Shown piece after piece: positions 47,721 through 62,958 of a stretch of 64,000 nt of DNA (position 1 is the stretch's first letter; every line of letters starts with the position of its first letter). This DNA is from Erythrobacteraceae bacterium E2-1 Yellow Sea (GTDB lineage: Bacteria > Pseudomonadota > Alphaproteobacteria > Sphingomonadales > Sphingomonadaceae), in assembly GCA_014983025.1 (NCBI GenBank), contig JADCLP010000006.1:62001-126000 (forward strand), in the 5' to 3' direction. Below the pieces are notes generated by a model that ran no database searches, was not told the origin of the DNA, and was given only the letters and a program-made list of their open reading frames with translations. The position numbers and the translations under genes are program-made.

Positions 47721-48434
47721 GTGACAAGACAGACGTTTCAACGCTTGGCTGCTCTTGCCGCGTTTGCGGCTGCGCTTTCCGCATGTGGCAGCACACCCCC
47801 GCCGGCAATCGGCGCTGCACAGACACAGCCGCAAGCCAGTCTGGGACAGAATGGCTACACCGCAAGGCCGGACGCGAATTATCATCTACGCGGTTCTGAC
47901 GTAATTTCGGTTTTGATTTTTCGTGAGCCGGACTTGTCGATGGACAAGGTTGCGATTGGGGCTGACGGGCATTTGTCATTGCCACTGATCGGTCAGGTGA
48001 ATGCGGCTGGGCTGACCGTGGCCGAACTTACCAGCCTGCTGAGCCAAGAACTGGACAATGCTGGTCTGAAAAATCCTCAGGTTGCTGTAAATGTAATCGA
48101 TCACGCATCACACCTTGTGACTGTTGAAGGCGGCGTGACAGAGCCGGGCGTCTATCAGTTCCAGCCAGGTGCAAAGCTTTCATCAGCTATTGCATTGGCA
48201 AAGGGGCCAAGCCGTGTCTCGCAAATGCGCGAAGTGGCAATTTTCCGCGAAACGCCTGACGGGTTGATGGTCGCCAAATTCGATTATCGCTCTGTGCGCC
48301 AGGGCACCATGCTGGACCCCGTCCTGGCCCCGGGTGACCGGATTGTGGTTGGCATTTCAGGCTTGTCCCAATTCTGGCAGGATCTGCTGCGCGCACTACC
48401 TGCCTTTGCCCTCTTCACTAATGTGAACTGGTAG
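47721..48434 (+). CDS. Wza/GumB-like polysaccharide export lipoprotein
   Basis: The signal peptide ends in a lipobox (LSACG, Cys near residue 22). The poly_export domain follows: NYHLRGSDVISVLIFREPDL, then IGADGHLSLPLIGQVNAAGL, and an SLBB-like domain with VTVEGGVTEPGVYQF. Wza forms the outer-membrane channel for capsule or exopolysaccharide. It has 237 residues, short like GumB. The GTG start lies 6 bp from the next start by stop-to-start distance, and the tyrosine kinase Wzc follows. Confidence 0.92.
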   Translation: MTRQTFQRLAALAAFAAALSACGSTPPPAIGAAQTQPQASLGQNGYTARPDANYHLRGSDVISVLIFREPDLSMDKVAIGADGHLSLPLIGQVNAAGLTVAELTSLLSQELDNAGLKNPQVAVNVIDHASHLVTVEGGVTEPGVYQFQPGAKLSSAIALAKGPSRVSQMREVAIFRETPDGLMVAKFDYRSVRQGTMLDPVLAPGDRIVVGISGLSQFWQDLLRALPAFALFTNVNW

Positions 48435-48439
48435 GTGCG

Positions 48440-50662
48440 ATGATGGAACACACCAACCTGGCACAACCAGCACCACGCCCGGCTGAGAACTGGCTGGACA
48501 ATTTCATGCCCGGCGGCAAGCAGGGTGATAAAGGTCCAAGTGGTGAAATTTTCGATATCAGGGCGATCCGTGGCCTGTTATTCCGCCAGCGTTATCTGCT
48601 GATTGCAACAGTTGCTCTAGCTTTACTGACAGGCTTGATCATCACGCTTATCGCTACGCCAATCTATCAGGCAGAAACCACCATACGGGTCGATACGGAT
48701 GGCGCGAATATTGTCGAAGGACAAAATCTGGAGGCCATCCACGCGAACGAAGTATATCGCTATATGGAAACGCAAGGCTCGGTCATTCGCAGCCGTCGCC
48801 TGGCTCTCGCTGTCACTGACAAGCTGAAATTGTATGACCGGCCCGATTTCCTCAAAGGCATGACGGCAGAAGAAAAGCCTGATGGTGTTGGCGAGGAACA
48901 ATGGGCTGCCAAGCGCCGCGATGCCGCGGCTGACAAATTGCGCGCCGGCCTGGAAGCCGACATTCCTGATCAAAACCGGATCGTCACTATCCGGTACCGA
49001 TCAACCGACCCGGTAATGGCCGCAGATGTGGCCAATGCCTATGCCACGATTTTCGTCAGCGAGGACTTGCGCCGCAGCCTAGAAGAAAACCAATACGCAC
49101 TCAAATATCTGCGCGAACAGATCGAAGATGTGCGTGCCCGCCTGCAAGAGGCGGAACTGGCCGCCAATGCCTATGCCCGGCGCAGCGGCATTGTGAACCA
49201 GTCCATCGCTGGCAGTATTGATAATGATGAATTCGGTTCCCAGAACCAGTCCATCACAGGCGCCAATCTGGCGCGGATCAACGCCACCTTTGCCAGTGCG
49301 CGCGCTCAAAGAATTGCCGCGGAAGAACGCTGGCGTATTGTCGCCAGTCAACCTGCCGCCCAACTGCCCGAAGTTCAAAACAATAATGCAATTCAGACCG
49401 TTCTGGCCCGACGGGCTGAATTGAACACACAGCTATCTGAACTGCGCCAGCGTTATGATGATAATTATCCCGCCATCACCGATGTTATTGCCCAGATATC
49501 TGCAATTGATCGGCAGTTTGCATCGATTTCTGGCGACATCAAGAACGGCATCCGCAATGAATATGAAATTGCATTGCGGCAGGAACAATCGCTGGGTCGC
49601 GAACTGAACAGCCTGTCGCGCAGGACGCTTGATGAACAGGACAGCAGGGTTCGCTTCGAACTGCTTGAACGCGATGCGATTTCCCTGCGCGGTGAATTGG
49701 GTGCCCTGCTAGAGCGTTACAACGAGATCAATTCTGCATCGAACCTGCAACTGGGCTCGTCCAGCCTGCTGGATGAAGCAGTGGTGCCAAGCCAGCCCAT
49801 ATCGCCCAATCTGCTGCAGAATATGCTCTTGTCCCTGATGATCGGCGCTGGGCTTGCTGGCGTTTTGGCCGTGCTGCGCGAATCCTTCGATGATCGCCTG
49901 CGGTCGCTCGAAGATATCGAGGATAGGCTGGGCTATCCCGTACTTGGCCAGACGCCCTATGTCGAAGACACAGACATAGCTGAACAGATTGGAAACCCTT
50001 TCAGCCCGCTCATGGAAGCCTATTCCTCGCTGCGGTCCACACTCGATTACGCATTGCCGCGCGATCGCAATGTCTTGATGGTCACAAGCAGCCAGGCAGG
50101 GGAAGGGAAATCCACAACAGCCATGGTTCTGGCGCAAAAATCAGCGCAACTAGGCCGCAAAACCTTGCTGATCGATGCAGACCTTCGCCGCCCATCCATC
50201 GCAAGAATGTTTGGCGAGGCGAGACCCAAGCTGGGTTTTGCCGAAGTGGTTTTGGGCCATACCGACCTGGCATCCGCCCTGATGCCTGACACGCCAAAGA
50301 ATTTGGATGTGCTTCCCATGGGAACGCTGCCGCCGAACCCGGTTGAACTTCTGTCATCGGGCGAAGTGGCCAAGTTCATTGCACATCACCGTGACGAATA
50401 TTCTTTGATTATCTTCGATTCATCACCGGTGATGGGCATCGCCGATGCACCGATCCTGACACGCCATGTCGACGCCGCGGTATTCGTTATAGAGGCGAAT
50501 AAAGTGCAGAGAGGTCAGGTACGCGACTCTATCCGACGCATTCGCAATGTCGGGGGCAATTTGGCCGGTGTGGTGTTGAGCAAGTTCCGCGCGCTGCAGG
50601 CCGGTCAGTCATACGACTATCAATACCGCTATTACGATTACAGATCGAGTGAGGCAGAATAA
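48440..50662 (+). CDS. Wzc-like polysaccharide co-polymerase and tyrosine autokinase
   Basis: The N-terminal Wzz domain has two membrane helices (YLLIATVALALLTGLIITLI and NLLQNMLLSLMIGAGLAGVL) around a long periplasmic coiled coil (residues about 190-400). The C-terminal BY-kinase has Walker A SQAGEGKSTTAMVLAQ, Walker A' TLLIDADLRRPS and Walker B YSLIIFDSSPVMG. The tail holds a cluster of tyrosines (SYDYQYRYYDYRSSEAE) for autophosphorylation. It controls chain length and export with Wza, which lies 5 bp upstream. It has 740 residues. Confidence 0.95.
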   Translation: MMEHTNLAQPAPRPAENWLDNFMPGGKQGDKGPSGEIFDIRAIRGLLFRQRYLLIATVALALLTGLIITLIATPIYQAETTIRVDTDGANIVEGQNLEAIHANEVYRYMETQGSVIRSRRLALAVTDKLKLYDRPDFLKGMTAEEKPDGVGEEQWAAKRRDAAADKLRAGLEADIPDQNRIVTIRYRSTDPVMAADVANAYATIFVSEDLRRSLEENQYALKYLREQIEDVRARLQEAELAANAYARRSGIVNQSIAGSIDNDEFGSQNQSITGANLARINATFASARAQRIAAEERWRIVASQPAAQLPEVQNNNAIQTVLARRAELNTQLSELRQRYDDNYPAITDVIAQISAIDRQFASISGDIKNGIRNEYEIALRQEQSLGRELNSLSRRTLDEQDSRVRFELLERDAISLRGELGALLERYNEINSASNLQLGSSSLLDEAVVPSQPISPNLLQNMLLSLMIGAGLAGVLAVLRESFDDRLRSLEDIEDRLGYPVLGQTPYVEDTDIAEQIGNPFSPLMEAYSSLRSTLDYALPRDRNVLMVTSSQAGEGKSTTAMVLAQKSAQLGRKTLLIDADLRRPSIARMFGEARPKLGFAEVVLGHTDLASALMPDTPKNLDVLPMGTLPPNPVELLSSGEVAKFIAHHRDEYSLIIFDSSPVMGIADAPILTRHVDAAVFVIEANKVQRGQVRDSIRRIRNVGGNLAGVVLSKFRALQAGQSYDYQYRYYDYRSSEAE

Positions 50663-50689: not shown

Positions 50690-52018
50690 CTATTTTCCTG
50701 ACAAACTATCCCGCTGTGTAAATGCGAATGATGTTGCCCCGCCCAACAGCATATAGAACCATGTCTGAAAGCCGCCAAAAAAGGCCACTGTGAAACCGGC
50801 CAACAAGATTGAAGACAGTGCAATAACCAATCCTAGTGCGAACTTGCCATCCACCTTGTCCATATGCGGAACCTTCAGCGCAACCTTTGCGAGCACAATC
50901 AGGGCCGCCAGCAGAATGAATACCACCATCGGAATCCCATGCCTGAGCGCCAGCAAAAGCCATTCGGCATCCACGCTGTTGGGCATCCAAAATGCACGCT
51001 CATAATCGGTATAGGCAATACCGAACCAGGGATGCGCGCGAACCGAATTCAGCCCAAAATCCCAGGTCAATGTGCGATATGCGCCTGTGGCTGGGCTGAG
51101 CGTATAACGGATGATGACGGAGATCAGCCCGTTCTTGCTGGCGACTTCAAGCAATAGTGCCAGCCCAATGCCAGCGAAGATAAACCGCCACCAGGTCAAA
51201 ATCTCCACACGCTTTTGCAGCCAGTCGTACCCAGTCATCGTCACAAAGTAGATCAGCACGAGAAATACAGCCGAACTGATCGAGAAAATCGCGCATATTC
51301 CGGCACACAGGCCAAAATAGAACGGCCATTTGCGAATGCCAGACATGACATAAAGGGGCAGCAGGCTAGCCAGAAACAAGCCAGCCAGAATGGGGTGGGA
51401 AAACGGCCCTGCCACCCTCAACAATCCCAGTCGCACATCCGTGAATCCACGCGCGGGCCCAACTGCCGTACCATTTTCATATGCAGGCAGGCTTCCGAAG
51501 ATATTAGCAAAGAAAGGGCGCACCAACGCCCGCTGCGCCAGGGTTTCTGCAAACATTGTGGCACCCGCCAACAAGGCGCCAGGTGCAACCAGCACCAGGA
51601 AGCGACGAAGATCAGTCAAATTCTGAATGCAAGAGCGCCCAACCAGATAGGCAGGCAACAAATCCATCACCAGTGCCCCGCCCCGGATCATACCAGCTGA
51701 TGGACCATAAAAGACGATGAAGGAAATCAAGATCCAGGCCGATCCCGCTACCATCAGCAGGTCTGCCACCGAGAAACGCAACCTTCCTGATACGATCATC
51801 CGGATGATCCAGGGGAACAGGGCAAGCGTTGCGAAGCGATAGGGATAGATCGCCAGGCCTGCGATCTCCAACCGCATTTCCTGCGGCAAAAGGGCAGAAT
51901 AAAACAGCACAAGCGCAGGCATCATCTGCCAGATGATGGTGCGCAGATCGCTTTGCGAAGCGCCCACAGGCTTGTGCCAGACGGGGCTGCTACCCGCGAG
52001 CGTGTCTGCCGATGTCAT
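50690..52018 (-). CDS. O-antigen ligase/Wzy-like membrane protein
   Basis: The protein has about eleven hydrophobic segments and the Wzy/WaaL pattern: a long periplasmic loop with NSVRAHPWFGIAYTDYERAF before the last helices, and LLRVAGPFSHPILAGLFLAS with a conserved His. Such proteins polymerise repeat units or ligate polymers to a carrier. It has 442 residues. It lies on the minus strand, convergent with wzc and divergent from the spike-base gene. A second protein of this kind begins at 63357. Confidence 0.85.
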   Translation of the reverse strand: MTSADTLAGSSPVWHKPVGASQSDLRTIIWQMMPALVLFYSALLPQEMRLEIAGLAIYPYRFATLALFPWIIRMIVSGRLRFSVADLLMVAGSAWILISFIVFYGPSAGMIRGGALVMDLLPAYLVGRSCIQNLTDLRRFLVLVAPGALLAGATMFAETLAQRALVRPFFANIFGSLPAYENGTAVGPARGFTDVRLGLLRVAGPFSHPILAGLFLASLLPLYVMSGIRKWPFYFGLCAGICAIFSISSAVFLVLIYFVTMTGYDWLQKRVEILTWWRFIFAGIGLALLLEVASKNGLISVIIRYTLSPATGAYRTLTWDFGLNSVRAHPWFGIAYTDYERAFWMPNSVDAEWLLLALRHGIPMVVFILLAALIVLAKVALKVPHMDKVDGKFALGLVIALSSILLAGFTVAFFGGFQTWFYMLLGGATSFAFTQRDSLSGK

Positions 52019-52165
52019 GATTTGCGCCCCATCTGCCCACCCTATGCCTCAACAGCTCTCTCTCGCAATAACCCTTTGCGCCCGTGCACAACAAACAAAG
52101 CATTTTCCTACTCATATACGAAACGCTACGCAATGTTCTCTATTTGTTCATTTGAGGACGCGCAT

Positions 52166-52435
52166 ATGCCCAAGGATAGTTTCCAGACTTCATCTGATAG
52201 CCTGATCGCACCCGCGAAAGCTGCATTCGACATTACGCCGAATGATTTTACCGAACTGCAGGAAGTAACCAAAGCAATATACATTGGCACGGGTGGCGAT
52301 GTTGTGCTGCGACCGCAGGAAGGGTTGGCAGACGTTACATTTCGCAATCTCCAGTCAGGTGCAATCCTGGATGTCCGCGTCAGTGCTGTGCGTGCCACAG
52401 GGACAAGCGCAACAGATATTATCGGGCTGGTGTAA
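52166..52435 (+). CDS. GTA-type head-spike base protein (Rcc01079/GhsA-like)
   Basis: The 89-residue protein matches the pattern of the spike-base family first seen in the Rhodobacter gene transfer agent (Rcc01079, GhsA): AKAAFDITPNDFTELQEVTK, then AIYIGTGGDVVLRP, TFRNLQSGAILDVRVSAVRA and the ending TGTSATDIIGLV. In RcGTA this base binds the capsid and holds a fibre that attaches to capsule. ATG 52166 has GAGGA upstream. The stop overlaps the next ATG (TAATG). No capsid or tail genes are in the window. The family assignment is by motif recognition from memory, not by a search. Confidence 0.7.
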   Translation: MPKDSFQTSSDSLIAPAKAAFDITPNDFTELQEVTKAIYIGTGGDVVLRPQEGLADVTFRNLQSGAILDVRVSAVRATGTSATDIIGLV

Positions 52436-54519
52436 TGCCCGGGTTCGGTTACGGATTGGGCCTCCGCAAAAGGCATCGCCTGGCCTTGCCGGGTGAAACC
52501 CCTGTTGCAGTTGAAGCAATAGAACCGTCCGCCAGTTGGACCGGTGTGGCGGCATCAGGTTATTCTATACCGCCCAGTGATCCTGCACGCGTGACAGCAA
52601 AACCGGCATGCCGCCTGATCGTTGTGCCCAACCAGTATTTTACAGATGAATTGCTGGTGGGGGTATATGCGGGCGCGAATAATGGCGGTTCCCTGTATGA
52701 AAACATGGGGTTGAGCCATGTCCGCGTTTATTGTGAAGGCAATGTGCTGGATATTCCCGCCCCCTCCGTTCAAATCTTTCCGGATGCCAATGGAAATCAG
52801 GTTTCCTGTTTCGGCTGGTGGGCAAAGTTGAAAAAGCCTGTTGGCATCAGCGGACATGCCCATGTCTATTTTGAGGCTGTGCCGTCCGATGCAACCATGC
52901 AGAACCGAGTGATCGGCCCGTTCCAATTCAGCCCACAGGAACTGTTTGCAGCAACGGGGACCATTCACGATTATGAATTAGAAGTGGCCGCCAGCCAGAC
53001 TGAAATTGCCGGCGTCAGATACAAGACGATCTATGAAGCCTTGCGTTATCTGGCGCTGCAATTGGCCGAAAACCCCCGGATTACCGTGACCGAAGCTGGA
53101 ACTTATGACTTGCAGCAAGGTCATTGGAGCATACACGCGGGCAGTGGTTTTGCCACGATCCAGGCAAGCGCCCCCATTACAATCGGCAGGAACAATTTCA
53201 CAGTCGCCACCGCCGCCCTGCCCCGCACCAAATATGATGGACTGCACTTTAAAGGCAGCAATATTACCTTCGACATGAAGAACATGGATGCAGTTTATCC
53301 TGAAACGGCATCCACAGGCCGGGACTATTGGTTTGACGGGATTGTTGCGACCAATTCAGGTGGGCGTGGCAATCTGTGGGCTGGCGGCCCCCGCATATTT
53401 GGCCTGTGTCGCTTCAAACCCTGGTTCACCGAATGCAGCATCTCAACCCTGCCCAGCATGGTGACAACCGCGTCGCTGGTGCGTGGCTGCCAACTTTCCC
53501 AGGGCTACTTCGACTGCGCAACAGATGCCGATTGCGTGATCGGCAACAGGGTTGAGGATTGGGACAGCGTTGACTGGCTTACCGAACGGCCTGCCTTCAG
53601 CGTGCAATATACCGGCACAGGTGCCAGTGCGACCTTGGAACTGAGTGGGTCAAATGACGCCAGCAGCAGAACCTTCACAGCGAAAGTGAACGGATCCAAC
53701 GTCGGCACCTTCACTGTCCAGAAAACCGAAGCCGCCTATGCCGCTAACACGAATTATACGATTCAGAATGTCGTCGATTGGCTGAACGGGCTCACCGATT
53801 GGTCCGCAAGCGTGATCGATAATACATATCGGGCAACGGCCTGTTCGCTCGCCGGGCTTGATGGTTCGGCATTCGCCGCAACAGATGTGAAATCGGCACC
53901 GTTGAATGTGGTCACTATTTTCAGCGTCCATCCTGACTTCTGGCAATTACCAGAAGGGCTGGGGACGCGAGAGAATGTTATTGTAGCTGACAATAAATTG
54001 ATCGACTTTGCAGGCCAGAAGCTGTTTCTGTCTGCTGGCAGTACAAATCTTCATGATGCACTTTTCATCAACAACGCCGCCCATGACAAAGACATCATCA
54101 GCGGCAGCCAGAACAAACTGGTGCTGTCTTCGCAAGCGGGCAAAAACAGCCAATCTCATGTGATCGTGGCCCATAACAGCATGATGCAGAATCTTCTGCT
54201 ACGGTCCGATCTTATCTACAACCCGGACAGCTATTGCATTGTTTCCAACAATGTATTTCGGGATATCGATTGGGTGGGCAGCCCGAACGATCCTGATCTG
54301 ACAATTTCAGGTAACCATCTGTTTATCGGAGCTGACAATCCATCGGGTGCCGCTGGAACATCGATCGGCGGTGACGAGACGAGCCTGTATTCAAATGTTG
54401 TCGCCGGAAATTTTGCCCCGAAAGGTGATTTATTGGCCAACCGTAAACCGCCAGTTTTGAAATATGACATCAACGGCAATGCGCGAGCTGCCACCAGCCC
54501 TGTGGGCGCTTTGCGATAA
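52435..54519 (+). CDS. Beta-helix spike/fibre-like protein paired with the spike base
   Basis: The N-terminus MPGFGYGLGLRKRHRLALPG resembles fibre proteins of GTA and phages. The middle (residues about 180-330) has hydrophobic-polar repeats typical of a right-handed parallel beta-helix: AGTYDLQQGHWSIHAGSGFA, then KYDGLHFKGSNITFDMKNMD. An inserted domain (residues about 385-485) is rich in Ser/Thr/Asn (LELSGSNDASSRTFTAKVNG). The C-terminal third has further coils (VIVADNKLIDFAGQKLFL, ENVIVADN). It has 694 residues and no signal peptide. Such proteins bind or cut polysaccharide; no active site could be assigned. Confidence 0.65.
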   Translation: MPGFGYGLGLRKRHRLALPGETPVAVEAIEPSASWTGVAASGYSIPPSDPARVTAKPACRLIVVPNQYFTDELLVGVYAGANNGGSLYENMGLSHVRVYCEGNVLDIPAPSVQIFPDANGNQVSCFGWWAKLKKPVGISGHAHVYFEAVPSDATMQNRVIGPFQFSPQELFAATGTIHDYELEVAASQTEIAGVRYKTIYEALRYLALQLAENPRITVTEAGTYDLQQGHWSIHAGSGFATIQASAPITIGRNNFTVATAALPRTKYDGLHFKGSNITFDMKNMDAVYPETASTGRDYWFDGIVATNSGGRGNLWAGGPRIFGLCRFKPWFTECSISTLPSMVTTASLVRGCQLSQGYFDCATDADCVIGNRVEDWDSVDWLTERPAFSVQYTGTGASATLELSGSNDASSRTFTAKVNGSNVGTFTVQKTEAAYAANTNYTIQNVVDWLNGLTDWSASVIDNTYRATACSLAGLDGSAFAATDVKSAPLNVVTIFSVHPDFWQLPEGLGTRENVIVADNKLIDFAGQKLFLSAGSTNLHDALFINNAAHDKDIISGSQNKLVLSSQAGKNSQSHVIVAHNSMMQNLLLRSDLIYNPDSYCIVSNNVFRDIDWVGSPNDPDLTISGNHLFIGADNPSGAAGTSIGGDETSLYSNVVAGNFAPKGDLLANRKPPVLKYDINGNARAATSPVGALR

Positions 54520-54528
54520 ATTCTGCCG

Positions 54529-56006
54529 TCAAACGCCCGTGCCCGGCCGCACAAGACCGGGCACGGTGCTGGCGAAAGGCAATCTTGCCAAGGCCGTGCG
54601 GATCCCATCCGGCATCTGGATGATCAGGATAACAATCGCTGCCACAGACAAAATGGCAGTGCACGCCAAGGCGGACAGCCAATCTTCAGCGTAAAGCGAA
54701 ACAATTATGGCAAGTCCCACCAACATGGCAGGCAGGGCCAGCTTGCGTGCAGTAAAAGCCACGCCGACCCCTGATCGATGGATCAACACAACACCATCCA
54801 GAAGGCAACGCAATCCGAAGGCACAGGCGATACCTGCCAGCCCGAATGACACACCCAGAACGGCCAGCATCACGGCATAGATGGGCAGTTCCATCACATG
54901 AAGTAGAGCGGTAAAACGCGGCAACCCGCGTGCATGCAATTGCGCATAGGGCACATTGGCCACCGCATTGACCCAGAAACTGGCGAGCAGGATCACCGCC
55001 ACCAGCAGGGATCGCGGATCAAGCGCATCACCCAACCACAGTTGCAACAAAGGGCGCGACAGGCAAATCAACACGATCACCAATGGCGCATATAGCTGTC
55101 CAATGAAGACCGTATATTGCCGGCATTTCTCGATAGATCCCTCCACCGACTCTGCTGCCAATTGCGGAAATAGCGCCTGCACCAGGGCAATCGGCAACAT
55201 TTGCGTGCGGCCTGCGATCTGGAAAGGGATGGTATATGCAGCAACAGCTGCTGCCCCCAATACCGCGCCAATCGCAAACCGATCCGCATAAACCATCAAT
55301 GGACTGATCACGCCTGACAAGGCGATCCATGATCCAAATGTTGTTGCATGACGCAGATCGGCAGCAGCAATACGCAACGGTGCACCACGCAAGGCAAATC
55401 GCCACAGCCCTGCCCATCCAATAATCAAACCGATCAACCTGCCAGCAACTGCAGCCATAATCAGCCATGTCAGATCAGGCCCCCAGGCAATCGCAACCAT
55501 GAGTGGAAGTATCTGACCAGAAGAATTACCCACCAGATTGGCCATGGCCGAGATACGGAACCGTTCCAGCCCCATCAACGCTCCGCCCGCCACACCGTTC
55601 AACGCCATGATCGGGTTCGCCAGAGCCAGCACCCAAACTGCCTGCAGCAATTCGTCACGCAGGCCCTGTGTTATCTCGAAAGGTCCGGAAAAATAGTAAT
55701 AAGCTACTGCATAAACCAGTGCCGCGCCTATCAGCGATATCGCCAGGGCAACACAGGCAGCGGACCAGACCGCCACCGCTACCTGCGCATTGTCTGCCTG
55801 TGGGGTTGATGCAATGCGCTGCGTCAGGGCACGGCCTGTACCAAAATCTGCCTGCCCGAAATAACCCAACAGCAACCAACCAATCGCCAGTGCGCCATAT
55901 CGCGCATGCCAATTGCATCGACGTAAAAGGGGATGGTGGCCAGCGCTACAAGCAAAGGCAGACCATTGCCCATCGCGACATAAAGGCTGTTGCGCAGCAA
56001 TTTCAT
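54529..56006 (-). pseudogene. Wzx-like polysaccharide flippase with a -1 frameshift
   Basis: The N-terminus MKLLRNSLYVAMGNGLPLLV runs in one frame to VDAIGM. In the next frame the protein continues as RYGALAIGWLLLGYFGQADF and then as a normal MATE/Wzx-type flippase (about 12 helices) to 54529. One missing G after the ATG at 55905-55907 (ATGGCGCGA expected, ATGCGCGA seen) restores a 492-residue protein. It would move lipid-linked repeat units across the inner membrane. A downstream start in the second frame lacks the first helix. It is either a decayed gene or a base-call error. Confidence 0.85.
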
Positions 56007-56122: not shown

Positions 56123-57328
56123 TCAGCCCCCGATGATCCATTGCTGCAAACCGGACTTGCGGCAGCTGGCGGCGCGGATTTCTGCATCACAAATGGAGCG
56201 CAGATAGCGATGGCCCTTTTCCAGCAACCAACCTGGGTAGCCCAACCATTTAAGCGGGTCGTTGACATCACGACCGGAAAGGCGCGCCAATTGATATGGG
56301 TCCGGTTGAACTGCACGGCTCAAAGCGTGGATTGGCCCCGTGCCACCGCTGCGTGATATCACACGGTGCAATAGGGCATGTTGGCGTGCAGTCTCTTCTG
56401 TGTCCAGCAGTGCTAAATAGGCGCTATCCAGCAGTTCAGAGCGTGGAAATTCGTTCGTCAAAAGATCGGCTGGCACCCAGCTGGCGCCAGCATGCCGTAC
56501 CATATGGGCCACCAGTTGTAATGCGCGGGCCAGATCCATCTCTGCAGCCTCTGTCTGCAAGCTCGCCCAATCTATTGGGCCGTGACTGGTCACCAGAAAG
56601 TGCAGATCAGCCAGTAGCAGTGGCCCATTGCTGAAAAGGTGGTGCCATGTTGCATGTTCAACCAGGTGCAGAAAATTCGTCTGCTCATCCGGCACACGAA
56701 TATCCTCACCCAAAAGCTGTGCGAATGTTGCAGAAGCATTGATCTGTAAGAGCAAGCGTGCCTCGCCCGCCCAACCACGTGCGTTCAAACGATGATGCAA
56801 TTCGATCATCAGCCCGCTTTCACAATCGACAATTTCGGGCAATTGGTGACCATATTCGATGCCATATCGCCCTGCCCCAGAAGGCCGGGAAAATCTGGCA
56901 TCGGACAGCAACAGCTTTTGGGCTTCGACCACCTCATCATGGGGTAGCAATAAATCAACGTCACGCAACGGACGCAGTGATGGATCGGGATATGCACCAT
57001 ATGCCAGCGCAAGGCCCTTCAATGCGATTGGGCGCAACCCAGCCTCACGCAGCAGTGCAACTACTCGGGCTATCGCCCGCCCCTGGGCAAGCGCGTGCAG
57101 GGCAGCGTCCCTGGCTGCTTCATGCAATTGTGCAATGACAGGCTTTGCCAGATCAGCCCCTTCGGCGATATGCGCCAGAAGTGGCAGGGTGCGCGTACGA
57201 TACGCCAAAGCAATCAATTCTTGCCAATGCTTGGGCGACAACGCTTGCAAGGCGGGGCGATGATCCTCTTCAGGTGCGGCACAACAGGTGATCAGAAGCT
57301 GCCCAGGTTGATCAACAGTGTCAGCCAC
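56123..57328 (-). CDS. Nucleotidyltransferase-family protein of the RiPP operon
   Basis: The central part holds the NTP_transf_5 pattern: LRPIALKGLALAYGAYPDPS followed by LRPLRDVDLLLPHDEV, which places the Gly-Ser-like loop and the two metal Asp residues. The rest is helical (residues 1-100 and 200-400), with ATWHHLFSNGPLLLADLHFL near the middle. Such proteins occur beside lasso-peptide kinases and may modify the peptide. It has 401 residues. It overlaps the ABC transporter gene by 8 bp and is the last gene of the operon. Confidence 0.8.
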   Translation of the reverse strand: MADTVDQPGQLLITCCAAPEEDHRPALQALSPKHWQELIALAYRTRTLPLLAHIAEGADLAKPVIAQLHEAARDAALHALAQGRAIARVVALLREAGLRPIALKGLALAYGAYPDPSLRPLRDVDLLLPHDEVVEAQKLLLSDARFSRPSGAGRYGIEYGHQLPEIVDCESGLMIELHHRLNARGWAGEARLLLQINASATFAQLLGEDIRVPDEQTNFLHLVEHATWHHLFSNGPLLLADLHFLVTSHGPIDWASLQTEAAEMDLARALQLVAHMVRHAGASWVPADLLTNEFPRSELLDSAYLALLDTEETARQHALLHRVISRSGGTGPIHALSRAVQPDPYQLARLSGRDVNDPLKWLGYPGWLLEKGHRYLRSICDAEIRAASCRKSGLQQWIIGG

Positions 57329-58985
57329 CGCTCAATTCCACCACATGATCTGCCAGCGCCGCCATGGCCGGGTCATGCCCCAAAACCACCACGGTCATTT
57401 TTCCGCGCAACGCCGCAATAGAAGTCCGGATGGCATCGGCATTGCTCTGATCAAGACCCGCAGTTACCTCATCCAGGATCAATAGATCCGGGTTGCACAG
57501 CAGTGCCCGAGCCAATGAAATACGCTGCCGTTCACCGCCAGACAATTGCCGCGCACCTTCGCCTATGCGTGTGGCCAAACCTTGTGGCAAATCATCTACG
57601 AACCCTGCACTCGCAGCGTCCAGAGCAGATTGCATTTGTTCATCGCTGGTTGCCACATCGTCCCATGTCATGTTCTGGGCGATTGTTCCATCGATGAAAA
57701 AAGGGCGCTGCTCAACATAGGCCACGTGTTTGCGCCACCCCAGCCGCACTGCGCCATCCAATACCTGCCCATCCACCAATAATGTGCCGCTGTCCGGCGC
57801 GATCAAGCCACTCAAGACATCAGCAAGGCTGCTCTTGCCCACACCGGAAGGGCCATAGATTGCGATGATTGAACCTGCAGGAATGGACAGGCTGAAGCGG
57901 TCAAGCACGGGCTTTACCCTGCCCGGAAAGGAAAGTGAGACATCCGACAGTTCTATCGACTGGCGCAGGGGCACTGTCTGCGCAGCATCTATATGCGGTT
58001 CAGCATGCATCCGTGCTTCGTCAATCAAACTCAAGATTCCACCCATTGCCGGGCATGCATGCTTCCAGCCACGCAAAGCCTGTTGCAATCCACTGATCAT
58101 TGGAACAGCCCGCACCGATAGCGCCAGAATGGGCACTACATAGGCAAGCGGCATGGCCCAGACGAAAATCGCCAGATAGATGAACAGTGCCAGCAGCGCA
58201 GCGGCGATTAGCTGGAATAGCACCAGAATGCGGTGCCCGGCGCGGAAATAAGACAATTCAAGCCGTTCAAGCTGCGCTGAACCATAGGCAAAATCCCGCG
58301 CGAATTGTGGCATGCCCCGTCCAATACGTGCGGCACGCAAATGATCGAGCCCACCACTCACAACCCGCTGCAAATCAAGATATGCCTGCGTATAGTGCCC
58401 CTCTTCCGCACCGCGCAGCCGACGCAGCAGCCACACAGGCCAGATCGCGGCCAGGCCAAGGCCCACAATCACGAGCGTGAGTGGCGCAGAAATCAGGACA
58501 CTGGTCACCAACAGGACGAACAAGGTCAACGTATAGGTCAATGCCGTCAGCCCTTGGTCTGCCAACACACCTGCGCGATCTGCCTCCCCCATCATCAAAG
58601 CAGCATGGTCTCCACTGTGCTGCCCACTCAACCAGCGCCATTCCGCCCCCATGATCGCCATATGTGCGCTCTGTCGAAGCTGACGGGTCAATTCCAGTCC
58701 AGCAGATCTGCGCCGTTCATTGGCCGCATAAACGATGACAGCTCGCGCCCCGACCAGGGCAACAAATCCAGCCAGCAAGACCTCTGGCGGCCAATCAGCC
58801 AGACTGGCCAGCCAGCCGTTTGGCCCGCCATCGACCTGGCCAATAATCAACAAGGTGATCGGCACCAGCAGCAAAAGGCCGACCCCCTCTGTCAGGCTGG
58901 CGATCAGCATCAGCATGATCAGGATTAACAGCTTGCGCGACCCGATCTGCACAATAAGCGCACGCATCACCTCCCGGTTTCCCAT
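57321..58985 (-). CDS. ABC exporter (membrane-ATPase fusion) of the RiPP operon
   Basis: The N-terminal half has six membrane helices (from LLILIMLMLIASLTEGVGLL). The C-terminal ATPase has Walker A IYGPSGVGKSSLADVLSGLI, signature LSGGERQRISLARALLCN and Walker B DLLILDEVTAGLD. It corresponds to the D protein of lasso clusters, which exports the mature peptide. Start 58985 (MGNREVMRAL) was chosen as it lies just after the stop of the cyclase gene; the frame is open further upstream. It has 554 residues. Confidence 0.88.
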   Translation of the reverse strand: MGNREVMRALIVQIGSRKLLILIMLMLIASLTEGVGLLLLVPITLLIIGQVDGGPNGWLASLADWPPEVLLAGFVALVGARAVIVYAANERRRSAGLELTRQLRQSAHMAIMGAEWRWLSGQHSGDHAALMMGEADRAGVLADQGLTALTYTLTLFVLLVTSVLISAPLTLVIVGLGLAAIWPVWLLRRLRGAEEGHYTQAYLDLQRVVSGGLDHLRAARIGRGMPQFARDFAYGSAQLERLELSYFRAGHRILVLFQLIAAALLALFIYLAIFVWAMPLAYVVPILALSVRAVPMISGLQQALRGWKHACPAMGGILSLIDEARMHAEPHIDAAQTVPLRQSIELSDVSLSFPGRVKPVLDRFSLSIPAGSIIAIYGPSGVGKSSLADVLSGLIAPDSGTLLVDGQVLDGAVRLGWRKHVAYVEQRPFFIDGTIAQNMTWDDVATSDEQMQSALDAASAGFVDDLPQGLATRIGEGARQLSGGERQRISLARALLCNPDLLILDEVTAGLDQSNADAIRTSIAALRGKMTVVVLGHDPAMAALADHVVELSGG

Positions 58986-58989
58986 GCTG

Positions 58990-60936
58990 TTATCGGCTGT
59001 CCCCATTCCCCCCGACATAGCGCAGGAAACGCGCAGTCGATACAGCGCGGCCAAGTGCTGCACAGATGCGTTCATACTCATGTTTTTCTGGGTCTTCACC
59101 GCCCTGCCATGCGGCCCAGTCACTGCTCAACCGCGCAACGTCGAAAACTTCAGTAAGCGCTGGGTCACGCTGCATCTGAGCAAGTTCATCATCCAATATT
59201 TCATGGTCGCGCTGAAATCGCATAGCCCAGTCAGCCGCCTGCCTGCCAGCCCGCCTTTCTCCCCATACCGCTTCCGGCACGCGCCCCTGCAACAAACGGC
59301 GCCCCAGCCAACGCTGTGTGCCGTCGCGTAAATATTGATCATCCGGAATGCCGATGCATAATTCCAGCAGCGGGCGATAGGAGGTTGGATCGCGATAGCC
59401 GATGCCATGTTGCAATTGCAGCGCCAGTTCGATCTCGCCGCCTTCACTCAACATTTCACCCAGAACCGCAGCGCGCCAATCGCGAGAGGTGGGCACATCA
59501 TAGAAATAGGGATCAAAGCCGGTCTTGCGTGCGCGATCGAAAACACCACTGTCACGCGCAAATTCCCACCTCATGGGACACCATGTTTCAAATGGAGAGG
59601 GGCGCCATCGGCGCGGCGCATCAATCAATCGGCGTAGACCCAGCGACACATGCGGCATTACTGCGCGCGAAATCAGCCGACGCCATGCAGGACGATGGTC
59701 GCGATTACGGGCGTTCTCCAGCCATAAATGCTGCCAACGCCCTTCGGCAAACCATGTGGGATATCCTGTCAGTCCGTCGTAGGAAAAACCCGTATTGCCC
59801 GCTGCGCCGTGGAACACGGCATCGCAACCTTCCGCAACTGCGCATGAAAACATCTCGCGTATCCAATGCATGTTCACTTCATTGCGGGCGGGCCAGCTAC
59901 CCATAGCCAGCATTGCATCCTGATCCTGGCAAAAGCGGCGATCGGCGCCTGTAATAAAACGCGGCTGGAGCTGAGGGTACATTTCCGCCAGTGCGCGAAC
60001 TTTGGCACTTTCATCACCAAAGCTGGTATCATGCTGCCCAGCCTGCCATCCGGCCTGTGGGACAGAGGTGTAAGAGATGAGCGCTTGGTTCGGCCCAATT
60101 AATTCTACCAGATAACTGGCTACGGCCTGGGAATCGAACCCGCCCGACAAAGAGATTGCGGGGCGTGCAACGCCGATAAGTTCAGCTGCTGTGCCCTTAC
60201 GAAAGGCAGCATCCACCGCTTCGACATAATCATCATCTCGCGCGAAGCGAACATCAGGCACATCATGCACTGACCAGAAGCGACGGTGCCTTTCACCCGC
60301 CGGATCATGCCATTGTACCGTTCCCGCTTCGAGCCGCTCCGCACCAACATACCAGCTGCGCGAACCATCGGAATAGTTGAGCAGCAGGGCATCACCCAGC
60401 TTGGCGTGATCCGGCTTTGGTTCAAGCCCGGCAGCAAACAGCGCACGCGGGATAGAAGATGCTATCACCCGGCTGCCCTGCCGCCAGACATGCAAGGGGC
60501 GGCATGCAACCGATCGCGCCAAGCGCAGCAGATGGCGCTCTGGAAACCAGCGGATCGCAACATAATTGCCGTGGATCAACCGATCGCAATTCTCCCCAAA
60601 CCTGGCATGAATGGCAGCATAAAAATCCTGGTCGGACAGAGCTGGATCGGCCCCAAATTGCAGGTTCAATTCGCCGCGATCATGTATCCAGCCTGCCAGA
60701 AGTGTGTAGCCACCATCGTGATCCTGGACAGGGGACAAGACTTCAATTTCGGGCGTTGCTCCATCACTTAACCAACCATTTGCACGCGCGGCAAGCCATC
60801 CCCCTGTCACGTTGCCATGCCGTAAACCCCCAGCTTTGCCGCGCTGCATTTCATTGACGATCGCGGGAATACTATCAGCAAACCCATTTCCCCCACCCAG
60901 ATCAACTGCAACAGTGATCAGCAGGTCAGCGGGCAT
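58990..60936 (-). CDS. Asparagine-synthetase-like lasso cyclase (C protein)
   Basis: The ATP pyrophosphatase motif SLSGGFDSQAVASYL identifies the asparagine synthetase B fold. The N-terminal glutaminase-like domain is present but lacks the catalytic Cys at position 2 (MPADLLITV), as in lasso cyclases that activate an acidic side chain with ATP and close the macrolactam. RPLHVWRQGSRVIASSIPRA and the ending RICAALGRAVSTARFLRYV are also typical. It has 648 residues. It overlaps the B2 gene by 11 bp. Confidence 0.85.
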   Translation of the reverse strand: MPADLLITVAVDLGGGNGFADSIPAIVNEMQRGKAGGLRHGNVTGGWLAARANGWLSDGATPEIEVLSPVQDHDGGYTLLAGWIHDRGELNLQFGADPALSDQDFYAAIHARFGENCDRLIHGNYVAIRWFPERHLLRLARSVACRPLHVWRQGSRVIASSIPRALFAAGLEPKPDHAKLGDALLLNYSDGSRSWYVGAERLEAGTVQWHDPAGERHRRFWSVHDVPDVRFARDDDYVEAVDAAFRKGTAAELIGVARPAISLSGGFDSQAVASYLVELIGPNQALISYTSVPQAGWQAGQHDTSFGDESAKVRALAEMYPQLQPRFITGADRRFCQDQDAMLAMGSWPARNEVNMHWIREMFSCAVAEGCDAVFHGAAGNTGFSYDGLTGYPTWFAEGRWQHLWLENARNRDHRPAWRRLISRAVMPHVSLGLRRLIDAPRRWRPSPFETWCPMRWEFARDSGVFDRARKTGFDPYFYDVPTSRDWRAAVLGEMLSEGGEIELALQLQHGIGYRDPTSYRPLLELCIGIPDDQYLRDGTQRWLGRRLLQGRVPEAVWGERRAGRQAADWAMRFQRDHEILDDELAQMQRDPALTEVFDVARLSSDWAAWQGGEDPEKHEYERICAALGRAVSTARFLRYVGGNGDSR

Positions 60937-61438
60937 GTGGGGCAGAAGTAGATATGTGATCTAATGGACAAGGGGCTGCTGGTATAAAGCCCAGTACAAT
61001 ATGGAAATTGTCGCGATCGCAATTCCCGATCAGCATGGTGCCGCCCAGTTCAACCCATGCGTGATAGCCATGTTCTGCTGAGCGATCCTGGCGATCCATC
61101 GCCAACACCAATTGCGGGTGGAAACCACCCCTTCGCAGCAACCATTGCAGCGCCATTGCCTGCGCCAGACATTTGGGCTCACGCGGAAGCCGATGTGCCG
61201 CCCGCACAACACGGCGAGCGACCGCGGTGGCGTGACGCATCCCATCTGCAGTAACGACTGGCATATCACCTGCACCGCCCGCATACACATCACCCAGGCT
61301 GGATCGCCAACGCGACATGGGGGCCAGACGAACCAGCAAAACCGCCAATATCAGCAACCCCATTACCTCCAGCGTTGCAAGCCGGGAGTGCCAGATATTT
61401 TGATCTGGATAGTTGGCGCCTGCCCCGGTCATGGCCAC
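60926..61438 (-). CDS. Lasso-peptide B2-like transglutaminase-fold protease
   Basis: The 170-residue protein has an N-terminal hydrophobic helix (MGLLILAVLLVRLAPMSRW) and the transglutaminase-like C-H-D triad of the B2 family: CLAQAMALQWLLRRGG, then HAWVELGGTMLIGNCD. B2 cleaves the leader peptide from the precursor bound by B1. It starts 10 bp after the B1 gene and overlaps the cyclase gene, so it belongs to the same operon. Confidence 0.87.
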   Translation of the reverse strand: MAMTGAGANYPDQNIWHSRLATLEVMGLLILAVLLVRLAPMSRWRSSLGDVYAGGAGDMPVVTADGMRHATAVARRVVRAAHRLPREPKCLAQAMALQWLLRRGGFHPQLVLAMDRQDRSAEHGYHAWVELGGTMLIGNCDRDNFHIVLGFIPAAPCPLDHISTSAPHAR

Positions 61439-61448
61439 GCCAAAACGA

Positions 61449-61715
61449 TCATCGATATTCAGCGAAACCAGTCGCCACTAGCTGATCGGCAAATTCGGCA
61501 ACAGATTTGCTGCATACATCATCTTCGACATCATACTCGTCGCAAATCTGCCCTGATATTACGTCCAGATCAGCTTCATCATCCAGCTTGCGCCAGATAT
61601 TGAAGCCAACATCCTTCAGCGCGAAGAAGCCACCTGTTTCGCCATGCACCAGAATCAATTCCCCATCGACTTCACTGGACAGGAAATTTCTGGAGAGCTT
61701 TATGAGTTTACGCAT
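61449..61715 (-). CDS. PqqD-like RiPP recognition element (B1 protein)
   Basis: The 88-residue protein has the PqqD/RRE fold pattern: LSSEVDGELILVHGETGGFF, then ALKDVGFNIWRKLDDEADLD and VISGQICDEYDVEDD with the winged-helix helices. B1 proteins bind the leader of the precursor and present it to B2. It lies 29 bp after the precursor candidate and 10 bp before the B2 gene. Confidence 0.85.
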   Translation of the reverse strand: MRKLIKLSRNFLSSEVDGELILVHGETGGFFALKDVGFNIWRKLDDEADLDVISGQICDEYDVEDDVCSKSVAEFADQLVATGFAEYR

Positions 61716-61744
61716 ATCGATCTGCTACCGGATAAGAAAAGCTG

Positions 61745-61885
61745 TCAGCTGAATGCGCCAACCCCATGCGAATCTGTCTTGGCCGCATTCTTTTGGCGAA
61801 TTGCAGAGAGATCGACTGTAAGCTGTTCAAGGACAGGTTTGGTCCATTGCTTACGCTGGCCAATGTTATCGCGCGGCTGTGTCAT
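61745..61885 (-). CDS. Candidate RiPP (lasso-like) precursor peptide
   Basis: This 46-residue gene was found by reading the gap between the kinase and B1 genes. The peptide starts MTQPRDNIGQRKQWTKPVLE and ends KTDSHGVGAFS. WTKPVLEQL (residues 14-22) matches the [YW]xxPxL leader motif that B1 proteins bind. GGAG lies six bases before the ATG, which overlaps the preceding stop (ATGA). The C-terminal serine is what paeninodin-type kinases phosphorylate. No Asp or Glu stands 7-9 residues after a Gly, Ala, Ser or Cys in the likely core, so a standard lasso ring is not evident. Confidence 0.6.
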   Translation of the reverse strand: MTQPRDNIGQRKQWTKPVLEQLTVDLSAIRQKNAAKTDSHGVGAFS

Positions 61886-61995
61886 TCCTTGCTCCAGAGC
61901 GGATCAGTGTCACAAAAATCAGCAATAAAATAGGCATACTCACCGCCACCTGACAAGGCGGCTGAGCTGGGATTTGCCCCATAAATGGAGGACAA
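61882..61995 (-). CDS. Small overlapping frame between the kinase and the precursor
   Basis: A 37-codon frame starts with TTG six bases after the kinase stop and ends in TGA overlapping the precursor ATG. The product is SSIYGANPSSAALSGGG followed by EYAYFIADFCDTDPLWSKE. GEYAYFIAD would allow a nine-residue Gly-to-Asp ring, so it could itself be a precursor core. The TTG start and lack of a clear leader motif make this uncertain, and it may not be translated. Confidence 0.3.
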   Translation of the reverse strand: MSSIYGANPSSAALSGGGEYAYFIADFCDTDPLWSKE

Positions 61996-62001
61996 GTCTG
62001 C

Positions 62002-62958
62002 CTATTGTGGCAGGCCGTTCAAAAGCCCGGTAATTTGCCGAACATCAGCGTTAAATCGCGCGGGATCGCGCGGACGTTGTAACCGCCAGAACTGCACATG
62101 GCGTGCAAATGCCAACATCAATGTCTCATGCGCGCGCTGATCAGCCCGTGCAGCGTGGATGAAATCACGATAAAGCGCGCTCAGCAAAAGTTCCAATTTT
62201 GCCGCACCGGTGACAGGTTCTATCGAAACATCAGGGCCATCTTCCAGGAATATCAAATGTCGCAGAGGCATTGCATGCTGAACGGGAACACTCAGCTCAG
62301 TAAAGAATTTTCCTGGAACTGACGCAATCGGCGGCCCGGCTTCCAAACCGATCATAGCCAGCGCATCACCCCACAGTTTGGCAGGCTTGCCATCGGGCAG
62401 AGCCAGCGGGCCATCACTTGCAGATACAGTCAGCAGCGTATCATCACAGACATGTGCCATCCCTTCCCCGGAAAGGGCTGCCGCCAATGTCGATTTGCCA
62501 GAGCCTGCTGCACCAGTGAAAGCTATTACGCCGCCTGCATTCGCAACCGCGCTGGCATGCAAGGGGAAAAAACCGTTGAGCCAGGCAACCGCTCCAAACA
62601 CCGTGCCCCACAGATATAGCCGCAGCTCATCCCGGTTCGCACCGCCAGAGCAAAGTGCATAAACCTTGCCACCCAGTTGATAATGGAACCGAACACCACC
62701 GGGCGTAACAAACTGGAAAGACGCAGCTGTGAGTGCAAAGCCTTCCCGATCGAACAATATATCCCCGGTCAGATCACCACCATCGCCATGCTGGCAATCC
62801 ATGGCATGCCGCATCAATTCCATCGCCCGCAACCCTGCTTCGTGCACGGGTTGATCGGCAATTTCAGGCGCTGCCGCCATAAGAGATCCAGGTGTTTTCA
62901 CTTCTTTGCCGCATAGCCCCTGCAGCCATATCAGCCAATGACCACGCGGATTTACCAC
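62002..62958 (-). CDS. HprK-like serine kinase of the RiPP operon
   Basis: The protein has the HprK-related kinase fold: FPLHASAVANAGGVIAFTG, with Walker A TGAAGSGKSTLAAALSG just after it, and a later CDDTLLTV acidic motif. In paeninodin-type lasso clusters such kinases phosphorylate the C-terminal Ser of the precursor. The N-terminal half (residues about 30-120) is a beta-rich region. It has 318 residues from GTG 62958; an ATG at 62880 is also possible. It is the first gene of the operon. Confidence 0.85.
   Translation of the reverse strand: MVNPRGHWLIWLQGLCGKEVKTPGSLMAAAPEIADQPVHEAGLRAMELMRHAMDCQHGDGGDLTGDILFDREGFALTAASFQFVTPGGVRFHYQLGGKVYALCSGGANRDELRLYLWGTVFGAVAWLNGFFPLHASAVANAGGVIAFTGAAGSGKSTLAAALSGEGMAHVCDDTLLTVSASDGPLALPDGKPAKLWGDALAMIGLEAGPPIASVPGKFFTELSVPVQHAMPLRHLIFLEDGPDVSIEPVTGAAKLELLLSALYRDFIHAARADQRAHETLMLAFARHVQFWRLQRPRDPARFNADVRQITGLLNGLPQ

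Follow-up and report, generated by a model that had tools for sequence, protein, structure and literature searches.

A predicted head-spike gene pair of the RcGTA type within a polysaccharide locus of Erythrobacter and its relatives

Spike genes and their polysaccharide locus

The window analysed here, a stretch of 64,000 nucleotides from Erythrobacteraceae bacterium E2-1 Yellow Sea (genome G000; 2.5 Mb in 31 contigs, given as 100% complete), carries two overlapping forward-strand genes within a polysaccharide (EPS) locus, the first encoding a spike-base protein of 89 aa (52166..52435) and the second a fibre of 694 aa (52435..54519). The 89-aa ORF matched the NCBIfam family NF048002 ('spike base protein, RCAP_Rcc01079 family') with an E value of 1.7e-30 and 105.1 bits, relative to a curated cut-off of 28 bits, and covered positions 1-85 of the 85 in the model. 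It was also matched by PHROG 12296 (E 3.4e-23) and, over residues 4-85, by the solved head-spike base of RcGTA (6tb9, Rcc01079; E 1.5e-10). Judged by these matches, 52166-52435 can be assigned to the Rcc01079 spike-base family and occupies the GhsA position; the genome contained no second spike-base match. The initial annotation had described a small protein resembling the RcGTA spike base (Rcc01079, GhsA), to be searched against spike-base models, and this identification holds, while its counter-case of no match to the family falls away. The fibre gene lies directly 3′ of the base gene, in the gene order of GhsB, and its start codon opens on the last base of the base gene's stop codon (TAATG), giving a one-base overlap. 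Coupling of the base gene to a beta-helix gene, also claimed in that annotation, agrees with this overlap and with an AlphaFold2 model of the fibre that aligns with beta-helices.

On one side of the pair, genes for the polysaccharide export protein Wza (47721..48434, + strand; PF02563, E 1.6e-20) and the chain length protein/tyrosine kinase Wzc (48440..50662, + strand; PF02706, PF13807 and AAA_31) are followed by a reverse-strand gene for a Wzy-like membrane protein (50690..52018), from which the pair is divergently oriented. On the other side lies a gene for a Wzx-type flippase (54529..55875, − strand; PF13440, 6.5e-14; PF01943, 7.3e-14), placing the pair between Wza-Wzc and the flippase. The ORF at 50690-52018 had no match in Pfam or NCBIfam and is named for its position and membrane-protein look. 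The pair had been reported to lie beside wza, wzc, wzy and wzx-type genes, and Pfam bears this out for Wza, Wzc and Wzx, with the Wzy-like assignment made by position. Among 72 clustered spike loci, each extending up to ~10 kb either side, relatives of the Wzy-like protein were present in 53 and a Wzc relative lay near the spike in 53, the latter confirming that spike genes occur beside EPS genes more often than by chance. The window also holds, beside the EPS genes, a lasso-peptide-like cluster on the reverse strand (56123-62958) with NTP_transf_5, ABC transporter and Asn-synthase proteins and, by eye, a transglutaminase-like ORF (60926-61438), a PqqD-like ORF (61449-61715), a 46-aa precursor candidate (61745-61885) and an HPr-kinase-like ORF (62002-62958).

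Spike bases were also identified in 13 phage records, and second spike-base copies lie outside the EPS-locus context in three genomes (L051 in G037, L101 in G094 and L102 in G092). Both observations would be consistent with the pair being a remnant of an unrelated prophage that came to lie beside EPS genes. We consider this origin highly improbable, as EPS genes rather than phage genes flank the pair on both sides in the window, the same context recurs in other genera, and searches of 50,697 phage records and a plasmid collection found no relative of the fibre. The spike-base proteins of phages RcapNL and RcWaterboi, for example, belong to the same base family (36-37% identity) and lie in phage genomes, whereas the fibre encoded here has no relative in the phage collection.

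The closest described system is the head spike of RcGTA from Rhodobacter capsulatus, formed by Rcc01079 (GhsA) and Rcc01080 (GhsB), which, in the excerpts cited, shares with the window the base family, the base-fibre pairing, the N-terminal anchor pattern and a location outside the head-tail cluster beside polysaccharide genes (PMC7296036, PMC10218006, PMC8601537). RcGTA spike genes have already been described beside capsule genes in the relevant part of PMC10218006, and the locus here is therefore a variation on a known arrangement. Unlike in RcGTA, the pair sits, in Erythrobacter and its kin, inside an EPS locus of the Wza-Wzc type, with several fibre families, and its promoter carries the element TTTCCTAC together with a LexA/S24-type box. 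The fibre also differs in size, having 694 aa and a predicted beta-helix compared with the 325 residues given for the RcGTA fibre in the cited excerpt of PMC7296036.

Fibre anchor, beta-helix body and promoter

The 694-aa fibre had no match in Pfam, PHROGs or PDB sequences, and the NCBIfam search returned chance matches only (best E 0.14); in the PDB sequence search (E up to 1) no match to Rcc01080 was obtained. Its first ten residues, MPGFGYGLGL, have glycine at positions 5, 7 and 9 and hydrophobic residues at 4, 6, 8 and 10. This alternating pattern is in register with the RcGTA anchor IALGLGLGL, fibre residues 2-10, for which the structural description excerpted from PMC7296036 reports binding to the base pentamer. 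Fibre starts were obtained for 70 of the 72 loci (none from G082 and G094b), with whole fibres present in G026, G073, G105 and G109. A strict anchor motif, defined as at least two consecutive hydrophobic-Gly pairs within the first 14 residues, was found in 35 of these 70 fibres and 25 of 3746 background windows, and was missing from the remaining 35 fibres. Eight genomes (G009, G021, G035, G060, G071, G081, G086 and G089) encode a distinct base subtype with the motif K-Y/F-L-Y-V/I-G and the ending ACA, and none of the eight had the anchor motif, compared with 35 among the 62 others. In one fibre body family, cl40, the base is of the distinct subtype in G009 and G086 but of the common type in G067, whose anchor reads GIGLGFG, while G019, with the same body and a common-type base, has neither motif. 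On account of the pattern in G009, G086 and G067, the anchor seems to go with the base more than with the body, a comparison that few genomes stand behind. A GhsB role for the fibre is thus supported by position and anchor pattern, the body having no detected homology.

In the AlphaFold2 model of the fibre, built from 20 sequences, mean pLDDT was 88.7, with residues 1-20 under 50. Whole-length matches by Foldseek alone were weak, but when these were re-checked with VIA-align, residues ~175-690 aligned on right-handed beta-helices, including those of the glycoside hydrolase BT_1002, the AlgE4 epimerase, PL6 alginate lyases, RbmB and the Sf6 and HK620 tailspikes, with Z values of 13.1-15.8 among the 50 matches listed (~15 for the PL6 lyases). 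The predicted body thus resembles the fold of beta-helix tailspikes and depolymerases (Sf6, HK620) and of PL6 lyases, at ~10 to 17% identity among the matches listed. Unlike the Sf6 and HK620 tailspikes, the fibre would be attached through the spike base, judging by gene context and anchor.

An alternative is that the pair has left the GTA and now serves the EPS locus, in which case the beta-helix, together with a small partner, would bind or trim EPS. This would suit the likeness to PL6 lyases, AlgE4 and RbmB, although a predicted fold common to the fibre and these enzymes is not in itself a sign of activity. It would also suit the GhsB-position fibres of G025 and G049 (L044 and L058; 1028 and 1021 aa), which by eye open with a Tat-like sequence (RRSF and RRAF) in place of the anchor motif. 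The window's fibre, by contrast, carries the capsid-spike anchor, and inspection of residues 1-30 revealed no export signal of the kind expected of a secreted polysaccharide lyase. A capsid-spike base has also been kept together with the fibre, and overall we regard such a change of service as unlikely.

The promoter of the pair contains two elements on the forward strand, TTTCCTAC at 52104..52111, 62 bases before the spike-base start, and the LexA/S24-type box GTTCTCTATTTGTTC at 52135..52149. Nine of the 72 promoters were left out before counting because they lay in other contexts or had no EPS locus (G239a, G239b, G218a, G218b, G130, G082, G094a, G037b and G092b). Among the remaining 63, TTTCCTAC was present in 60 (0.29 expected), lying 54-82 bases before the start, compared with 0 of 40 wza promoters and 1 of 45 GTA terS promoters. 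As the element was discovered on most of the same promoters, the 14 further loci, all of which contained it, provide a fairer test. The exact pattern GTTCN7GTTC was found in 25 of the 63 spike promoters, that of the window included (0.26 expected), and in 9 of the 14 further loci, but in none of the 45 GTA or 40 wza promoters. LexA sites of the GTTC type have been described for alphaproteobacteria (PMC6473078, in the excerpt cited). The stricter pattern TGTTCN6TGTTC occurs at 15 sites in this genome, versus 3 for the reversed pattern; besides the spike's own, six of these adjoin genes for an IMS-type polymerase, uvrD, uvrA, mmcB and two S24-type repressors of 211 and 216 aa, while the other eight have neighbours not recognised as SOS genes, one of them being the exact sequence of the spike's box. 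The spike promoter therefore appears, by the GTTCN7GTTC pattern, to share an operator with SOS genes, and may be under SOS control. In size and make-up, the two S24 proteins resemble RogA, which the excerpt of PMC9632790 gives as a 213-aa LexA-like repressor of GTA activators in Caulobacter, and both LexA and a RogA-like protein are therefore candidate regulators.

A palindrome, AACCN5GGTT, was found in 21 of 63 spike, 16 of 45 GTA and 1 of 40 wza promoters, the window's spike promoter having the LexA/S24-type box and not the palindrome. That spike promoters carry an SOS-type box or this palindrome, the latter also present at GTA promoters, while wza promoters have 0 and 1 of 40, respectively, argues against the pair having passed into the service of the EPS locus.

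GTA cluster and distribution of the pair across genomes

An RcGTA-like head-tail cluster is encoded on another contig (C20) of the same genome. Family matches identified the capsid (PF05065), the DUF2163 hub (TIGR02218), the DUF2793 tail fibre, a DUF2460/TIM-barrel fusion protein and a megatron with Rcc01698_C, and the terminases, portal, protease, tail genes and NlpC peptidase were named by eye. GTA_TIM (PF13547) had no match in the genome, where a different TIM barrel (PF23845) is present. A genome without a GTA, as the missing PF13547 had first suggested, is ruled out by the capsid and hub markers. The initial annotation had called for a GTA cluster to be sought elsewhere in the genome, and the C20 cluster answers this; its counter-case of a genome lacking GTA genes does not apply. 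The DUF2460 protein (L033:11428-13752) measures 774 aa as a fusion that also contains a non-contractile tail sheath N-domain and a TIM barrel (PF23844 and PF23845).

Across the 114 genomes of the genus, the spike base was present in 60. Among the matches listed, 58 genomes had both the spike and a Wzc ortholog (at least 43% identity), 2 had the spike only, 2 had Wzc only and 52 had neither (Fisher 1.9e-27, phylogeny not modelled); partial Wzc matches at contig ends in G033, G099 and G108 were scored as present and a remnant in G100 (43% over 165 aa) as absent. The two genomes with a spike and no Wzc were G047, where the spike lies on a 6.3-kb contig of a 72% complete genome, and G082, where it lies in another context; the two with Wzc and no spike (G003 and G078) contain the EPS locus, with no spike found in the gap. 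For the GTA capsid, the corresponding counts were 38 with both, 22 with the spike only, 15 with the capsid only and 39 with neither (p = 1.7e-4, phylogeny not modelled). In these genomes, presence of the pair matches that of the EPS locus much more tightly than that of the GTA. The same context extends to other groups, with a Wzc relative lying within 10 kb of the spike in 9 of 14 further loci (one at 36% identity), these 14 being examined out of 36 and belonging to Novosphingobium, Aurantiacibacter, Alteraurantiacibacter and uncultured Sphingomonadaceae or MAGs.

Intact fibres of at least 519 aa were retained in 20 of the 22 spike-bearing genomes with no capsid match, the exceptions being G048, with a broken fibre, and G082, with its spike in another context. 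Four of the 22 are less than 90% complete (G047, G082, G086 and G105), and a full-length terminase is retained in some (G005, G019, G066, G070 and G105). For the base, dS was finite in 16 of 20 pairs, which gave dN/dS values of 0.03-0.27; for the fibre, dN/dS was 0.05-0.58 in 13 of 20 pairs. Many dS values were above 1. Intact spikes in genomes without a capsid match fit either recent GTA loss or another function. The presence of the pair with the EPS locus rather than the GTA, and the persistence of the fibre in these 20 genomes, are also what a pair now serving the EPS locus would predict.

Covariation, proposed role and GTA loss

For covariation of the fibre with neighbouring EPS genes, 42 genomes offered rpoB, an unbroken fibre and a locus of sufficient length; 7 of them lacked a Wzy-like or Wzc gene in the stretch and were dropped, leaving 35. 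In whole-matrix partial Mantel tests of these 35 genomes, fibre distances correlated with base distances (r 0.54, p 0.0005) but not with EPS content (r 0.02, p 0.36), Wzy-like (r 0.07, p 0.18) or Wzc (r -0.03, p 0.65); most fibre distances lie near saturation, yet the negative result still counts against covariation. Closely similar fibres behaved differently. When fibres were grouped at a distance below 0.6 (33 within-group pairs) and the rpoB trend was removed, distances were smaller within groups than between them for EPS accessory gene content (0.51 versus 0.85), Wzy-like (0.42 versus 0.69), Wzc (0.30 versus 0.43) and the base (0.30 versus 0.50), each with p = 1e-4, the floor of 9999 permutations. 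Fibre groups at 0.5-0.6 were also slightly closer in rpoB (0.144 versus 0.166, p 0.0007); for pairs with rpoB distances above 0.13 (25 within-group, no p computed), EPS content was 0.57 versus 0.86 and Wzy-like 0.45 versus 0.69. As these within-group distances go beyond the rpoB trend, closely similar fibres keep similar EPS loci. At a threshold of 0.7 there was no EPS signal, and the base alone showed one. Covariation, proposed as a check on the initial annotation, thus appears among close fibres and not in the whole-matrix tests or the looser grouping, and the idea that adhesin and polysaccharide are inherited together stands to the same extent, supported by the shared locus and the close-fibre pattern. 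Taken as a whole, that annotation's interpretation is partly supported.

Linkage alone could explain this covariation. The spike genes might then travel as passengers with a mobile EPS locus, under selection in GTA producers and hitchhiking in other genomes, and the fibre would have no functional match to the polysaccharide. The whole-matrix tests without signal and the retention of the pair in GTA-negative genomes would agree with such passengers. However, among the 22 GTA-negative genomes one EPS-locus fibre only is broken (G048), and G003 and G078 carry the EPS locus without the pair, which therefore can be lost; we think passenger status quite unlikely.

We consider it probable, on the evidence as a whole, that the pair is the head spike of this genome's RcGTA-type GTA and that the fibre binds the polysaccharide of the surrounding locus. 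If particles are produced, the base protein would sit on capsid pentamers, with the fibre pinned into the base pentamer through its N-terminal alternating hydrophobic-glycine peptide. The beta-helix would bind, and perhaps also cut, the polysaccharide of the Wza-Wzc-Wzx locus, and the pair's own promoter, with its LexA/S24-type operator, would tie spike production to DNA damage. Recombination that swaps the polysaccharide would tend to swap the fibre too, because the genes for adhesin and receptor share a locus, and particles would therefore keep fitting the coat of their own lineage. The adhesin is thus likely to be part of, and to vary with, the locus of its likely receptor, and fibre and polysaccharide may be functionally matched. 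Within the literature searched, the near-constant presence of the pair in one EPS locus across a genus and its neighbours, the variation of fibres with that locus and the SOS-type spike promoter are new.

GTA production kills the cell and scatters DNA, which raises the question of how such a trait remains aimed at kin. If the adhesin is encoded in, and varies with, its receptor locus, kin targeting follows from linkage, and DNA exchange between strains might be predictable from fibre type; key (spike) and lock (coat polysaccharide) may pass down a lineage together. More tentatively, the EPS locus with its embedded spike could act as a mating-type-like cassette for GTA exchange, in which receptor and adhesin are replaced together, release is of SOS type, and strains that lose the GTA, as at the recurring terminase/tail-fibre junction, retain receptor as well as adhesin and would thus go on receiving DNA from relatives. 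Genomes that lack the GTA and keep the pair would serve as natural non-producers for the cheater argument made in PMC10883770, in the part of it cited here.

One GTA deletion junction is common to 12 genomes (G009, G021, G025, G030, G048, G079, G083, G086, G088, G096, G107 and G065; loci L143-L147, L150-L155 and L271), in which terminase residues 1-151 are joined directly, in the +1 frame, to the tail-fibre gene at about codon 20. Eleven of these genomes fall in roughly ten separate places in the rpoB tree, several of them next to GTA-positive species, and in the sister pairs examined the flanks are similar right up to the junction. Among the tested pairs, the tail-fibre frame contained no stops, with dN/dS values of 0.04-0.20 where dS was finite. 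Recurrent precise loss, an old shared polymorphism and a kept remnant are all candidate explanations. In other deletions (L148, L149, L156, L157 and L158), the same terminase end runs into DUF2163 codon 137 (G050 and G052), or the portal is joined to the tail fibre (G019 and G066) or to DUF2163 (G070). Re-gain of the GTA by transfer is not favoured, since terminase distances correlate with those of rpoB, with Spearman coefficients of 0.54 for residues 5-151 and 0.65 for residues 152-439 across 25 genomes, the pairs not being independent.
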